Shown: positions 4,162 to 10,459 of the stretch, piece by piece
Layout: each line of letters opens with the position of its first letter
How positions within the stretch are numbered: position 1 is the first letter of the stretch
NCBI GenBank assembly: GCA_024698715.1
Contig: JAILRA010000038.1
Location: forward strand, 1 to 64,000
Length of the DNA stretch: 64,000 nucleotides
Reading direction: 5' to 3'
From: Lachnospiraceae bacterium
GTDB lineage: Bacteria > Bacillota > Clostridia > Lachnospirales > Lachnospiraceae
Program-made: the position numbers and the translations under genes
Notes under the pieces: generated by a model
Databases searched by the model: none
The model's input: only the letters and a program-made list of their open reading frames with translations
Told to the model about the DNA's origin: nothing

Positions 4162-4575
4162 TTAAAGCTGATTGTTCTTACCCTTCAGTTTCAGTCTGCT
4201 CATCTCTCTGGCTATTCTCATCTGAGCCGACTTGTATTCCTGGATGCTCTTCTTCTGAAGAAGTGCTTCACGTGCCTGATCGGCCGCCGCCCTCGCTCTG
4301 TTTTCATCTATTTCGTCCGGTGTTTCTATAGTGTCCACCAGAACTCTTACATCGTTATCCGCCACGATAAGGATCCCCTGTGATACGCAGGTAACGATTC
4401 TCTCCCCGTCCGGAAGAGTATATTCAAGCGTTCCGGGCACTATGGCAGCAACCATGTTTTTATGATGGCTTTGTATTCCGTATGAACCGTCGGTGATCGG
4501 AACCACGAGGCTTAAGCATCCGCCTTCGTAAAAGTTTCTTTCCGCGGCAAGAATATGCAGTGAAAATTCATTCAT
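4162..4575 (-). CDS. atpC: F1Fo ATP synthase epsilon subunit
   Basis: Epsilon belongs to the central stalk and regulates ATP hydrolysis. The protein has about 137 residues from the ATG at 4575. A longer frame to 4620 exists, but the 4575 ATG has GGAGA upstream and starts the usual beta-sandwich (MNEFSLHILAAERNFYEGGC). The Gly-rich core GSYGIQSHHKNMVAAIVPG is typical. The C-terminal helical hairpin is Arg/Glu-rich (RARAAADQAREALL). It follows atpD by 2 nt and is the last gene of the operon, just before a bidirectional terminator. Confidence 0.92.
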   Translation of the reverse strand: MNEFSLHILAAERNFYEGGCLSLVVPITDGSYGIQSHHKNMVAAIVPGTLEYTLPDGERIVTCVSQGILIVADNDVRVLVDTIETPDEIDENRARAAADQAREALLQKKSIQEYKSAQMRIAREMSRLKLKGKNNQL

Positions 4576-4577
4576 GA

Positions 4578-5987
<1,410 letters not shown>

Positions 5988-5995
5988 TTATGGCA

Positions 5996-6934
5996 CTATT
6001 TTGCCATTGCTTTAATCCGTTTTTTCTTCTTGGCTCTCGCACCTGCGGAGATCTCGGTGATCTCCTGTGTGATAGCCGCCTGTCGCGTATGATTGTAATC
6101 GATCGTAAGCTTGTCTATCAATTCTTCCGCATTTCTGTTGGCGGATTCCATCGCGTTCATTCTTGCATTCTGCTCACTGCAGAAACTGTCTACGAGAGCA
6201 CCGTATATGATACCCGTAATATAACTTGATATCATGTTGTCCAGTGCTTCCTTGGCATTGGGATAGAACTCTATCTCACCCGTCGGCCATTTGAATCCTC
6301 TCGTGCTCTTCTGTTCGCTTTCCCTTTCTGCCTTGCTCAGATTAAAATCCGAACGGTTGAAAGGAAGCAGACGCATCACCTTGACCTTTGATTCCATTCC
6401 GCTTTCATAGTCAGTAAATACTATGTATATCTTCGAAAGCTTTTTGTTATCATACAGATCCAGAAGAAGATCCGAGATCTCCCTTGCTCTCGCAAGCGTG
6501 GGATTCTGTGCCGTATAAAGGAACGTCTTTTCTATCGGTATCTTTTTCTGGTTAAAATATCTTCTTCCGTATTCGCCTACCACAAAAAGAAGTTTGTCAT
6601 GATTCTTGGTCATCAGTCTAGATGCTTCTTTAATTACATTCATGTTATATGCACCGGCCAGACCTTTATCCGCCGTGATAACAAGATATCCGTAGGTTCC
6701 TTCTATCTGATAGGATCCGCTTGCAGGATAAAAATAATCGCTTTCGACATTTTTTACCGTCTTGAAAATACGTCTGATACTGAGAGCGACTTCCTCAAAA
6801 TAAGGCTTTGTCTTGTCGAGTTCTTTTTTAATTTTTCTAAGTTTGTTCGAAGAGATAAGATACATCGCGTTGGTGATCTTCTGAGTATCCTTGACGCTCT
6901 GTATATGTCCTTTTATCTCCTTCATATTAGACAT
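5996..6934 (-). CDS. atpG: F1Fo ATP synthase gamma subunit
   Basis: Gamma is the rotor shaft. The protein has 312 residues, about 25 more than common bacterial gamma chains. The N-terminal helix MKEIKGHIQSVKDTQKITNA and the C-terminal helix (ARMNAMESANRNAEELIDKL, RQAAITQEITEI) are characteristic. The extra length comes from loops in the middle domain (around SESEQKSTRGFKW, reading KAERESEQKSTRGF) and a basic tail after QEITEI (RAKKKKRIKAMAK) where most family members end in a few neutral residues. GAGG lies 8 nt before the start. It sits between atpA and atpD as usual. Confidence 0.95.
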   Translation of the reverse strand: MSNMKEIKGHIQSVKDTQKITNAMYLISSNKLRKIKKELDKTKPYFEEVALSIRRIFKTVKNVESDYFYPASGSYQIEGTYGYLVITADKGLAGAYNMNVIKEASRLMTKNHDKLLFVVGEYGRRYFNQKKIPIEKTFLYTAQNPTLARAREISDLLLDLYDNKKLSKIYIVFTDYESGMESKVKVMRLLPFNRSDFNLSKAERESEQKSTRGFKWPTGEIEFYPNAKEALDNMISSYITGIIYGALVDSFCSEQNARMNAMESANRNAEELIDKLTIDYNHTRQAAITQEITEISAGARAKKKKRIKAMAK

Positions 6935-6974
6935 ACAAACTACCTCGCAAACCGATTGTCACGAAAGCCTTCGA

Positions 6975-8705
6975 TCATTTTTCACGATACTTCGAAGCAG
7001 CTTCCAGAATCGATTTTTTAATATCATCGGTAAGCATTCCGGTAGAATCGATCTTGTTGCAGATATCGGGATGGGATACCTCGAAATACTCAAGGATCTT
7101 TTCTATTTCCTCTGCGATATTCTTAACCGGAACATCCATGAAAAACTTATTCAGAGCAACCGTGAGCAGGATAACCTGCTGATGCTGCGAATAAGGCTTG
7201 TATTGTTTCTGTCTCAACAGATACATGAGTCCGTGTCCGTAAGTCAGCTGCTTCTGAGTAGCTTCATCCAGGTCGGATGAAAACTGCGTGAACACTTCCA
7301 TTTCTCTGTACTGCGCGAGATCGAGTCTTAATGAACCGCAGGCCTTCTTCATGGCCTTTGTCTGTGCATCGCCGCCTACACGGGATACGGAAAGTCCGAC
7401 ATTTACCGCAGGACGCTGTCCCTCGAAGAAGAGTTCACTCTCAAGGAATATCTGACCGTCGGTGATCGAAATGATATTGGTCGGAATATATGCGGCAACA
7501 TCGCCTGCCTGTGTTTCGACAATGGGAAGTGCCGTGATCGAGCCTCCGCCGAGTTCGTCACTTAAATGTGCTGCTCTTTCAAGAAGTCTCGAATGAAGAT
7601 AAAATACATCTCCGGGATAAGCCTCACGTCCGGGCGATCTGTCAAGCAGAAGTGACAGGGATCTGTACGCAATGGCATGCTTGGACAGATCATCATATAC
7701 GATCAGGACGTCTCTTCCCTGATGCATAAAGAATTCTGCGAGCGAGCAGCCCGAATAAGGTGCTATATACTGGATCGGTGCGGCATCCGACGCCGAAGCG
7801 TTAACTATGATGGTGTAATCCATCGCACCGTGTTTTTTTAAGTTGGTAACCATCTGCGAGATAAGGCTGGCTTTCTGTCCTATGGAAACATAGATACAGA
7901 CTACGTCCTTCCCTTTCTGGTTAACTATGGTATCGAGCGCGATTGAAGTCTTACCCGTCTGTCTGTCCCCGATGATGAGCTCTCTCTGTCCTCTTCCTAT
8001 GGGAAACATTGAGTCGATACAAAGGATTCCCGTTTCCATGGGTCTGTTTACGGGCTGCCTTTCAATGATTCCGGGAGCCGGACTCTCGATGGCTCTGTAA
8101 TCTTCAGCCTCGATATCGCCCTTTCCGTCGATGGGAAGTCCGAGGGGATTTATTACTCTTCCGAGGAAAGCATTGCCTACGGGAACACCCGCACTTCTTC
8201 CGGTTCTTTTTACCCTGCTGCCCTCGCTTACCTCATCGGTATCGTCAAAAAGGATACATCCGATCTCGTCCTCACGAAGATCGAGCACCATACCTCTTAT
8301 TCCGCCAGAGAAAAGCAGGATCTCGCCGTATGTGGCACTTTTAAGACCCGACACGGTGGCAATACCGTCACCGATACTCGTTACGATTCCTATTTCGGTA
8401 GGAGCGCTGACGGGTGTCCAGTCTTTTATGTTTTCTTTAATTAACGGAATAATGTTGTCGGTCGTTTTCTTTCCGACAGCATTGAATATCATTTCCTTAA
8501 ACTGCGCCAGTCTGCCCGCGTTGGTCCAGTCGTAGATCTCTTTACCGACTTCAAGGCGGAATCCTTCGGTTATGGTAAGATCCTCTTTCCATTCAAGAGC
8601 ATCTTCACCGTATTTTTCCGACAGGAATTTTCTGATCTTTTCTTCCTGAGCCGCTGTGGGTTTCTTCGCAGAATAAAGTATGCTTACGAATTTATCGTTA
8701 TTCAT
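6975..8705 (-). CDS. atpA: ATP synthase alpha subunit with N-terminal delta-C-terminal-domain-like fusion
   Basis: The protein has 576 residues; ordinary alpha chains have about 503. From about residue 84 it is a normal alpha subunit: EIGIVTSIGDGIATVSGL, RRTGR-type strand (VKRTGRSAGVPVG), P-loop GDRQTGKTS, and the signature SLLLDRSPGREAYPGD. Residues 15-75 match the C-terminal domain of the delta/OSCP subunit: a helix PTAAQEEKIRKFLSEKYG, then a beta hairpin ending GFRLEVGKEIYDWTNAGRL and a helix, like GGxxxRxGDxxxDGSVRGRL in delta. The operon has no separate atpH between atpF and atpA. The ATG overlaps the atpF stop by 8 nt, so both domains are translated together. I infer that the fused segment binds the b-subunit tips; the delta N-terminal helical bundle that normally binds alpha is missing. 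Confidence 0.93.
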   Translation of the reverse strand: MNNDKFVSILYSAKKPTAAQEEKIRKFLSEKYGEDALEWKEDLTITEGFRLEVGKEIYDWTNAGRLAQFKEMIFNAVGKKTTDNIIPLIKENIKDWTPVSAPTEIGIVTSIGDGIATVSGLKSATYGEILLFSGGIRGMVLDLREDEIGCILFDDTDEVSEGSRVKRTGRSAGVPVGNAFLGRVINPLGLPIDGKGDIEAEDYRAIESPAPGIIERQPVNRPMETGILCIDSMFPIGRGQRELIIGDRQTGKTSIALDTIVNQKGKDVVCIYVSIGQKASLISQMVTNLKKHGAMDYTIIVNASASDAAPIQYIAPYSGCSLAEFFMHQGRDVLIVYDDLSKHAIAYRSLSLLLDRSPGREAYPGDVFYLHSRLLERAAHLSDELGGGSITALPIVETQAGDVAAYIPTNIISITDGQIFLESELFFEGQRPAVNVGLSVSRVGGDAQTKAMKKACGSLRLDLAQYREMEVFTQFSSDLDEATQKQLTYGHGLMYLLRQKQYKPYSQHQQVILLTVALNKFFMDVPVKNIAEEIEKILEYFEVSHPDICNKIDSTGMLTDDIKKSILEAASKYREK

Positions 8706-9189
8706 CGATCTCTTCCTTCTTTGAAGCGTTTATAAACTGATCGTATGTGTCCAGATCGGAGCGTAATACGATCTTCTCGGTGGCGTCGTTTACTATCTGT
8801 GCGATTTCCTTCTGAGCATCGTTTATGATCCTGTCATGCTCGGACTGAGCCTTGTCTCTGGCCTTTTTGAGAATATTTGCAGCTTCTTCGTTTGCGGCGG
8901 TAATGATCCTTTCTCTTTCCGCAAATGTTTCCTTGCCTGCAACTTCTCTTTTGGCATTGATCTCGGAATCGGCACTCTTTAATCTGTTTTCATATTCTTC
9001 TTTGGCTTTTTCGCCTTCTTCAACAAGACTGTTTGCTTCCTCTTCGAGTTTCTTAAAATGCTCTTCTCTCGAATCCATGAATTTTCTGACGGGTTTATAC
9101 AAAATAAAGTACATTCCCGCAAAAAGGATCGCGAAATTGAATAAGTGAAGCAATATCTGCTGAACATCAATGTTAAGCGGTAATTTCAT
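8698..9189 (-). CDS. atpF: F1Fo ATP synthase b subunit (peripheral stalk)
   Basis: The 163-residue chain has one N-terminal membrane helix (HLFNFAILFAGMYFILYKPV) and a long charged helix rich in Glu, Lys and Ala that dimerises as the stator stalk. Family features are the LYKPVRKFMDSRE junction after the helix and the Ala-rich coiled coil. Normally its C-terminal end binds delta. Here the next gene is the delta-like/alpha fusion, which it overlaps by 8 nt. It starts 47 nt after atpE. Confidence 0.93.
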   Translation of the reverse strand: MKLPLNIDVQQILLHLFNFAILFAGMYFILYKPVRKFMDSREEHFKKLEEEANSLVEEGEKAKEEYENRLKSADSEINAKREVAGKETFAERERIITAANEEAANILKKARDKAQSEHDRIINDAQKEIAQIVNDATEKIVLRSDLDTYDQFINASKKEEIDE

Positions 9190-9236
9190 AACCTAAACCT
9201 CTTTTAATAGTTATTAACGTCAATACCGGATTACTC

Positions 9237-9593
9237 TTACAGGATGAATACAATAAATATTGCAACAACCAGACCGTAAATAATAGCTGTCTCGACGAAA
9301 ACCAGACCGAGCATCATAAGTGTCTGAATCTTTCCGGCGATCTCAGGCTGACGTGCAGCACTGTCTGCTGCCTTAAAGATAGCAAGACCCATTGCGATAG
9401 CACCTGCAGCAGCAACAGCAGCTACAACGATCGCAGCGGCATAAGCCTTGGCAACGGTTACGTCCTTATCGTTTGTTTCGGCTACCGCAACTTCACCGGA
9501 ACCTGCCGCATAAACTTTTGCTGGGATAAAGAAAACACTTAACGCAACAACCATCATCATAATCAACGCAACAGCTTTAATAGTTCTTTTCAT
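9237..9593 (-). CDS. atpE: F1Fo ATP synthase c subunit with signal-peptide-like presequence
   Basis: The protein has 118 residues; most c subunits have 70-90. The extra N-terminus (1-30) looks like a signal peptide: basic start, hydrophobic core VALIMMMVVALSVFF, possible cleavage after AKVYA. A linker to about 47 follows, then the usual helical hairpin. Helix 1 (49-74) is unusually rich in Ala where GxGxGxG is common. The loop ARQPE (80-84) is conserved. Helix 2 has the ion-binding Glu101 with Thr102 and Tyr106. Glu-Thr-Tyr also occurs in sodium rings, but the helix-1 Gln/Glu ligand is Met68 here, so ion specificity is unclear. It follows atpB by 2 nt with GGAGG. Confidence 0.9.
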   Translation of the reverse strand: MKRTIKAVALIMMMVVALSVFFIPAKVYAAGSGEVAVAETNDKDVTVAKAYAAAIVVAAVAAAGAIAMGLAIFKAADSAARQPEIAGKIQTLMMLGLVFVETAIIYGLVVAIFIVFIL

Positions 9594-9595
9594 TG

Positions 9596-10459
9596 TTAAA
9601 CCTCCGAACTGAGTTCTTTTTTATTCTTTTTAACTTTTTTTACTTTTTCTTTTTTCTCGTGAACTTCCGTAGCTTCTCCGTAGAAGATACTTACAAGCAT
9701 CGTAAGGACGTAAGCCTGTACCAGCGCGTGAAGCAGAGTGAACGCTATTCCTATTAATACCGGCAGACCGTAACTCGTATATTTCGTGTAATAAACAAGT
9801 TCCGTAACCAGCGCACCCGACAAAAGAGCACCGAACAAACGCAGACTCATTGAGATGGGAAGCGAGAAATCTTTAAGCACTCCGAAAAATCCTTTGGCTT
9901 TGTTTACAACAAGGCCGCTTATAAGAAGGAAAAGATATGTGGTACAACCCATCATTATCGCGCCGTTAATATCCGAAAGCGGGGCTCCGAGCGTAACAGG
10001 CTTACCCGATGTCGAAATGACCTGTATTCCCAAAAGCTCGAAACACGTACCTACGAAAATATAGCTGCCCGCGACAAACATATATAATCTCAGTAATTTA
10101 TATTTGTGAGGACTGTTGCCTTTGGCAGTTCCGTCAAACAGCCCGACCGCGGTTTCCAGGATGAGCTGGAACTTGCCGGGGATCAGTTTGAATCTCGGAA
10201 TAACAAATATTCTGACTATTATCGCGAAAGTAAGCATTACTCCCGTTACGATAAATCCGGCTATAAGTCCGGGATTCACATCCTTCAGTCCGAAGAGCGA
10301 AACCTTCAGGTGCTCATGTAGAACCGCATCCTGCATGACTTCCTGAATCGTCTCTTCCTGGACCTTATTGGGATCGTTAGTCAGAATAATACCAACAAGC
10401 AGACCTATTATTATCACTGCAAAGATCACAGCAGAGATAATGATTCTTTTCTTGCTCAT
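9596..10459 (-). CDS. atpB: F1Fo ATP synthase a subunit
   Basis: The 287-residue membrane subunit forms the ion half-channels against the c ring. It has five or more hydrophobic helices. The essential arginine is in SMSLRLFGALLSG, and the last helix includes LLHALVQAYVLTMLVSIFYG with the conserved Gln. The N-terminal motif FKLIPGKFQLILE is typical. The C-terminus is a basic tail (KEKVKKVKKNKKE). First gene of the operon, without atpI before it; AAGGA lies upstream of the ATG. Confidence 0.95.
   Translation of the reverse strand: MSKKRIIISAVIFAVIIIGLLVGIILTNDPNKVQEETIQEVMQDAVLHEHLKVSLFGLKDVNPGLIAGFIVTGVMLTFAIIVRIFVIPRFKLIPGKFQLILETAVGLFDGTAKGNSPHKYKLLRLYMFVAGSYIFVGTCFELLGIQVISTSGKPVTLGAPLSDINGAIMMGCTTYLFLLISGLVVNKAKGFFGVLKDFSLPISMSLRLFGALLSGALVTELVYYTKYTSYGLPVLIGIAFTLLHALVQAYVLTMLVSIFYGEATEVHEKKEKVKKVKKNKKELSSEV

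Follow-up and report, generated by a model that had tools for sequence, protein, structure and literature searches.

A natural delta-alpha fusion in a second ATP synthase operon of a Lachnospiraceae bacterium, and its counterparts among Clostridia

In simple bacterial F-type ATP synthases, the N-terminal domain of the delta subunit binds the N-termini of the three alpha subunits while its C-terminal domain binds the two b subunits, according to the available sections of PMC8617483. The same sections describe a mycobacterial b-delta fusion in which b is joined to delta together with a duplicated domain, and which occurs in one copy per complex. A third described arrangement is engineered. As far as the accessible text of Ueno et al. 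(2025; PMC12229609) reports, residues 105-178 of delta from Bacillus PS3 were fused to alpha and the delta N-terminal domain, which lies on the threefold axis and is named there as the limit to one stalk, was removed; known native enzymes are said to have one a subunit. In the engineered fusion, a and b were increased 2.2 and 1.8 times by gel, and cryo-EM particles with 0, 1, 2, and 3 stalks made up 15, 51, 26, and 8%, respectively. The H+/ATP ratio was 5.8 versus 3.0 and the balance point 68 versus 133 mV, gel and equilibrium data pointed to two stalks on average, and pump activity was reduced. The same text ascribes tuning of the ion/ATP ratio so far to c-ring size, names natural delta-alpha fusions (Acidaminococcus fermentans, UniProt G4Q3K6, and A0A1I2C5T3), and calls a natural multi-stalk form highly likely (PMC12229609).

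We analyzed a stretch of 64,000 nucleotides from a Lachnospiraceae bacterium (GCA_024698715.1, contig JAILRA010000038.1, positions 1 to 64,000; hereafter the window), which carries an atp operon at positions 4162-10459 of the minus strand. Gene calls and family matches bear out the order atpB-E-F-A-G-D-C that had been read from the sequence originally, with each of the seven genes matching its own family (Table 1). The F-type set of alpha, beta, gamma, epsilon, a, b, and c is thus encoded together and complete; a separate two-domain delta, as is characteristic of F-type enzymes, is replaced in this operon by the C-terminal half only, located on alpha. The coordinates of atpF and atpA confirm the 8-nt overlap (8698-8705) and the absence of atpH between the two genes, for which the overlap leaves no space. 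Assignment to the N-ATPases (alternate F1F0) was rejected, since the models for alpha, beta, gamma, a, b, c, and epsilon all scored below their cut-offs; for TIGR03324 (N-ATPase alpha), the window alpha scored 613.3 bits against a curated cut-off of 750.5. In atpC, an inner Met at residue 16 may be the true start.

Table 1. Features of the atp operon in the window.
Feature	Position	Strand	Remarks
atpB (a subunit, 287 aa)	9596-10459	-	remodelled; essential Arg kept
atpE (c subunit, 118 aa)	9237-9593	-	signal-like N-terminal extension
atpF (b subunit, 163 aa)	8698-9189	-	C-terminus with YDQF; separate protein
atpA (delta C-terminal domain fused to alpha, 576 aa)	6975-8705	-	
delta (OSCP) C-terminal domain, AtpA residues 8-77	8475-8684	-	PF00213, hhalign, predicted fold, PDB matches
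alpha N-terminal helix, AtpA residues 85-95, after delta domain	8421-8453	-	predicted helix 85-94; alignment with canonical and split relatives
atpG (gamma)	5996-6934	-	family match
atpD (beta)	4578-5975	-	family match
atpC (epsilon)	4162-4620	-	both domains present

The TIGR00962 alpha model starts matching AtpA at residue 81, and AtpA therefore carries about 76-80 extra N-terminal residues, close to the 73 estimated originally. The original prediction identified this extension as the delta C-terminal domain and proposed a PF00213 search and a structure prediction as checks; profile matches, predicted fold, and relatives all agree with that identification. Residues 10-71 match PF00213 above the gathering cut-off (26.7 bits versus 22.3) over positions 107-170 of 172, a span of 64 positions at the end of the model, and the fused domain scored 29.2 bits in the genome search. 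Profile alignment with hhalign matched the domain to positions 107-181 of canonical delta (E = 5e-7). Across 30 loci, a sequence pattern picked up 26 canonical deltas; eight of these deltas make up alignment A6. The delta model matches the window AtpA only at positions 92-165 of 168. Together with the abutting b and alpha frames, this upholds the claim that the delta N-terminal domain is gone. When the predicted fold of the domain alone was compared with the PDB, the first 45 among the matches listed were F-ATPase delta/OSCP chains. For the full-length AtpA model, the best 50 listed were alpha chains whose matches start between model residues 99 and 105, apart from one that starts at 37. That comparison therefore bypasses the delta domain, which is covered by the domain-only model. 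Across 65 sequences of the domain, F49, Y58, D59, W60, and Q68 are invariant and G48, G54, and G64 are conserved. We consider the delta-alpha fusion in the window as good as certain.

The absence of atpH that had been claimed stands for the window operon and fails for the genome. Contig C62 of the same genome (G000; locus L003) carries a complete canonical atp operon; its atpH product has 181 aa, and its alpha, of 501 aa, is unfused. The window operon therefore encodes a second F-type ATP synthase. A full-length atpH elsewhere, combined with a missing structural match to the delta C-terminal domain, had been named as evidence that would count against a fusion; the former was found and the latter was not the case. 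The two enzymes of this genome differ in their c subunits at what we take to be the Na+-ligand sites, namely the positions of Gln, Glu-Thr, and Tyr. The canonical c has Gln, Glu-Thr, and Tyr there, whereas the window c has Met instead of Gln and keeps Glu-Thr. The lack of the Gln ligand suggests that the window enzyme likely uses H+. The genome encodes rnfC; an Ech or complex I large subunit, sought with PF00346, gave no match in the 89% complete genome, and thus no proton pump was identified as a feeder of the window enzyme.

A query comprising the 83 N-terminal residues detected the fusion in 24 of 31 genus genomes (its own included), in two of six other family genomes, and in none of 24 other order genomes. 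Such recurrence across genus and family genomes indicates that the fusion is not a chance product. At the family level, a profile search matched 141 of 397 genomes (E <= 0.001), and an uninterrupted frame of at least 560 aa with a match was present in 73 of the 397. The count of 73 rests on frame length, and delta part and alpha were read in one frame for 60 of them; G200, where a contig end cuts the frame, is left out of the count. At the class level, the profile matched 173 of 391 genomes and yielded at least 38 uninterrupted frames that reached 560 aa, 20 of which were read.

In a named collection, 91 loci passed and 80 were kept. Most of these come from Clostridia of the rumen and gut, while a few bins bear the label Bacilli or Acholeplasmatales; the Lachnospiraceae isolates G41, NC2008, FE2018, NE2001, AC2031, and AB2028 are among the sources. 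The order a-c-b-alpha-gamma-beta-epsilon was observed in the named loci as far as the contigs reach, and no delta gene was found between b and alpha in 81 window-type loci (window included). All 80 named loci carry the delta C-terminal domain only (CTD-only); because they were found with the fused domain, they are fused by construction, and this biased sample shows consistency rather than frequency.

Among 30 hand-picked family genomes, 21 encode a single alpha, which is fused, seven encode both a canonical and a fused alpha, and two encode one unfused alpha. Each of the 21 has one PF00213 match, on the fused alpha, and the eight of them that were read are CTD-only (L168, L239, L241-L245, and L250). 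Since the fused alpha there is the sole alpha and carries the sole delta match, it must serve as delta in these 21 of 30 genomes, or the work of delta is not needed in them.

Operon regions of relatives, also hand-picked, revealed further arrangements. In 20 related-type operons, a separate delta frame of 166-225 codons lies between b and alpha (split type), while 20 long-alpha operons comprise 18 full delta-alpha fusions and two CTD-only fusions (L166 and L168). Of 161 alpha frames, 116 carry only the C-terminal domain of delta, a figure that takes in the 80 named loci and the window; a full delta is present in 20, and 24 have no delta domain (20 split, the canonical one, and L219-L221); one (L254) could not be judged. 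Within the full fusions, the delta N-terminal domain is about as conserved as in split enzymes (mean identity 0.35 versus 0.37).

Several operons depart from these types. Two window-type operons (L219 and L221, from genomes G629 and G695) have an alpha without either delta domain and no delta gene in the operon, and a third (L220, genome G545) has a free gene for the delta C-terminal domain (a 95-codon frame) beside an unfused alpha. Two tandem c genes occur in the split-type operons L187 and L189. At L168:4429-6789 (genome G122), one frame of 787 aa comprises b, the delta C-terminal domain, and alpha, with matches to PF00430, PF00213, and alpha families. This b-delta-alpha triple fusion is a single case, in the sole genome of its genus examined, and none was found among 79 relatives; a one-base error in the linker may be its cause, another frame having stops there and a TTG start being possible. 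In L251 (G098:C24), b and a delta-alpha fusion share one frame with a single TAG between them.

Phylogenetic reconstruction of 44 hand-picked alphas, with 200 bootstrap trees and 500 label shuffles, required 11 changes of the CTD-only state, at least seven of them forced by starred branches. CTD-only sequences formed one group in 0% of the 200 bootstrap trees, and the label was weakly clustered (21 of 500 shuffles were as low). Full and CTD-only fusions form well-supported pairs in L159-L241 (100/99), L165-L239 (100/96), and L169-L246 (95/89). The careful tree agrees in kind with a quick one of 108 rows, which sampled 20 of the 80 named loci and nine canonical rows, with L220 as a long row and L254 dropped as its Walker motif was not found; another tree drew on 40 of the 80 named loci and took 18 canonical rows from a set of 30. 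We read these trees as pointing to repeated loss of the delta N-terminal domain among relatives, because regain of a lost domain is unlikely. The clade of the window is a single one on the careful tree (seven rows, 100/99) with no full fusion as its nearest kin, and its own steps may have come in a different order.

Other subunits were compared across the same types. The C-terminal motif YDx[FL] of b is present in 51 of 81 window-type, 12 of 19 full-fusion, and seven of 20 split loci, as compared with 1.3 in shuffles of the same 120 b sequences. When enzymes of like barrel identity are compared, fused ones show a less conserved alpha N-helix than split ones; in the 0.6-0.7 barrel bin, identity was 0.44 for the window type, 0.42 for full fusions, and 0.67 for split enzymes, for pairs that are not independent. 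Its equal relaxation in full fusions, which keep the delta N-terminal domain, suggests that relaxation follows fusion and not domain loss.

The window a subunit has the essential Arg within SLRLF, aligned with canonical a; the Arg is present in 12 of 12 picked a subunits, with CMRLF as the motif in full-fusion and split enzymes. Window-type a subunits have an extra N-terminal hydrophobic helix, an insertion of about 10 residues in a loop, and a shortening of the loop that precedes the Arg helix; the window a also includes a conserved DAVLHE stretch. A profile of this a type matched 17 of 391 class genomes, in 14 of which it lies beside a fused alpha. In all 75 window-type loci with a c sequence, the window included, the c carboxylate is Glu and Met and Glu-Thr are present, along with a signal-like extension; split and full-fusion relatives have a short c with Ile at the Met site and mostly Glu-Ala. 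Many CTD-only fusions have an ordinary Fo, and the changes in a and c are therefore not required.

How might such an enzyme work? In an ordinary enzyme, the delta N-terminal domain grips the three alpha N-termini and thereby positions one C-terminal domain, and with it one b2 stalk. Our preferred reading, to which we assign a probability of roughly 0.6, is that delta in the window enzyme has been reduced to its b-binding half on each alpha, where it would dock b2, and that two or three stalks with their a subunits can assemble. The covalent link to alpha would replace the grip of the delta N-terminal domain, and a b2 stalk could dock on any of the three alphas. As in the engineered PS3 fusion, two or three stalks could then form, each bringing an a subunit, and the extra stalks would pass more ions per ATP, giving a low-gear enzyme for a weak ion gradient. 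We infer docking of b on the fused domain from domain homology and the retained b C-terminus; a number of stalks above one would follow from what the engineered enzyme does and from the fact that the limiting domain has been lost again and again. That precedent also addresses the stoichiometry puzzle raised by the original prediction, in which all three alphas carry the delta domain, since up to three stalks were reported on the engineered fusion in the available text (PMC12229609). Contrary signs are that only 26% and 8% of the engineered particles in that text had two and three stalks, with lower pump activity (PMC12229609), that the operons L219 and L221 lack even the C-terminal domain, that the CTD-only label clusters weakly on the careful tree, and that no proton pump to feed the enzyme came to light in the genome.

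The same fused domain could instead replace delta in a one-stalk enzyme, in which one copy of three binds b2 and the others go unused, there being space for, or a supply of, no more than one a-b2 unit. Each operon read whole has one b gene and one a gene, native enzymes are described with one a subunit, and a single stalk was seen on half of the engineered particles (PMC12229609, as far as available). Gel and equilibrium data that point to two stalks on average for the engineered fusion (PMC12229609, same portion) weigh against such an enzyme, as does the repeated loss of the very domain said to enforce a single stalk, and we regard it as unlikely, if the most plausible of the alternatives. 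Much less probable is a mixed complex with one delta, which would form if an internal start or cleavage left some alphas without the domain, or if canonical delta joined. Canonical atpH is available in the window genome, and an internal Met lies near the junction in 11 of 12 genus members but is absent in one; however, no second delta match was found in 21 of the 30 picked genomes, a Shine-Dalgarno-backed upstream start is present in 70 of 81 loci, and, at the junction, inner starts have such backing in 21 of 81 (26%), compared with 93 of 491 control windows (19%). With no clear enrichment at the junction and one genus member without the Met, an internal start yielding domain-free alpha was rejected as a general mechanism. 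A functionless relic, in an enzyme that dispenses with a delta-type link or serves chiefly as a pump driven by ATP, would accommodate the operons L219 and L221, which have neither the domain nor any delta, but it is hard to reconcile with the invariant residues and conserved glycines of the 65 sequences or with retention of the domain in 80 of 80 named loci (loci found by that same domain), and we consider it very improbable.

The window enzyme is a natural counterpart, present in many Clostridia, of the engineered multi-stalk ATP synthase, and it may itself carry more than one stalk. We tentatively propose, at somewhat less than even odds, that native multi-stalk fusions arose repeatedly by joining of delta to alpha and deletion of the limiting N-terminal domain, with L168 further along this path, and that window-like cells have two gears at their disposal: the canonical enzyme and, for weak gradients, a multi-stalk one whose ratio of ions to ATP is high. 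The number of ions per ATP sets a limit on the weakest gradient usable for ATP synthesis. If native fusions carry extra stalks and a subunits, they would represent a second natural gear change, used by gut and rumen Clostridia. The series from split delta through full fusion to loss of the N-terminal domain outlines how the limit on stalk number could be lifted. Cultured relatives make the prediction of Ueno et al. directly testable.

A delta-alpha fusion had at first been taken as an unknown kind, which does not hold: Ueno et al. (2025) built one and describe Acidaminococcus fermentans as a natural case in the accessible part of PMC12229609, and the kind is thus known in outline. In the mostly open-access literature searched, this was the one work on delta-alpha fusions found; we met no account of how broadly they occur among Clostridia, of relatives with a split delta or a full fusion, of the N-terminal domain being lost repeatedly, of coexistence with a canonical operon, or of a b-delta-alpha fusion. 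The available portion of PMC4478896 treats F0F1 genes in general terms and does not mention delta.

Compared with canonical F-type enzymes (Escherichia coli 6OQR, PS3 6N2Y, and L003 of the same genome), the window operon likewise encodes a, b, c, alpha, beta, gamma, and epsilon and the delta C-terminal fold, whereas those enzymes have a separate full-length delta. As in the mycobacterial b-delta protein, as far as it is described in the available sections of its source, the delta domain of the window sits on another stator subunit; here, however, the partner is alpha, present in three copies, and AtpF is a separate protein. Acidaminococcus fermentans, according to the accessible text of PMC12229609, likewise has the delta and alpha genes joined by nature, with the delta N-terminal domain missing; this organism and those of G4Q3K6 and A0A1I2C5T3 are other organisms, likened to the window by the description in that paper only. 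The engineered PS3 fusion has a short linker and a shortened epsilon and its stalks were seen on particles, while the window enzyme is natural, retains the epsilon C-terminal domain, and has altered a and c. PDB entry 9JC1 fits the engineered deltaDeltaN-alpha FoF1 by title and chain make-up. Residues 8-565 of the window alpha align with 6-568 of its chain 9jc1_I, and the profile match to that chain (E = 1.3e-6) covers positions 1-88. Like the engineered deltaDeltaN-alpha, the window enzyme has the delta C-terminal domain at the N-terminus of alpha, without the delta N-terminal domain and with no other delta in the operon.
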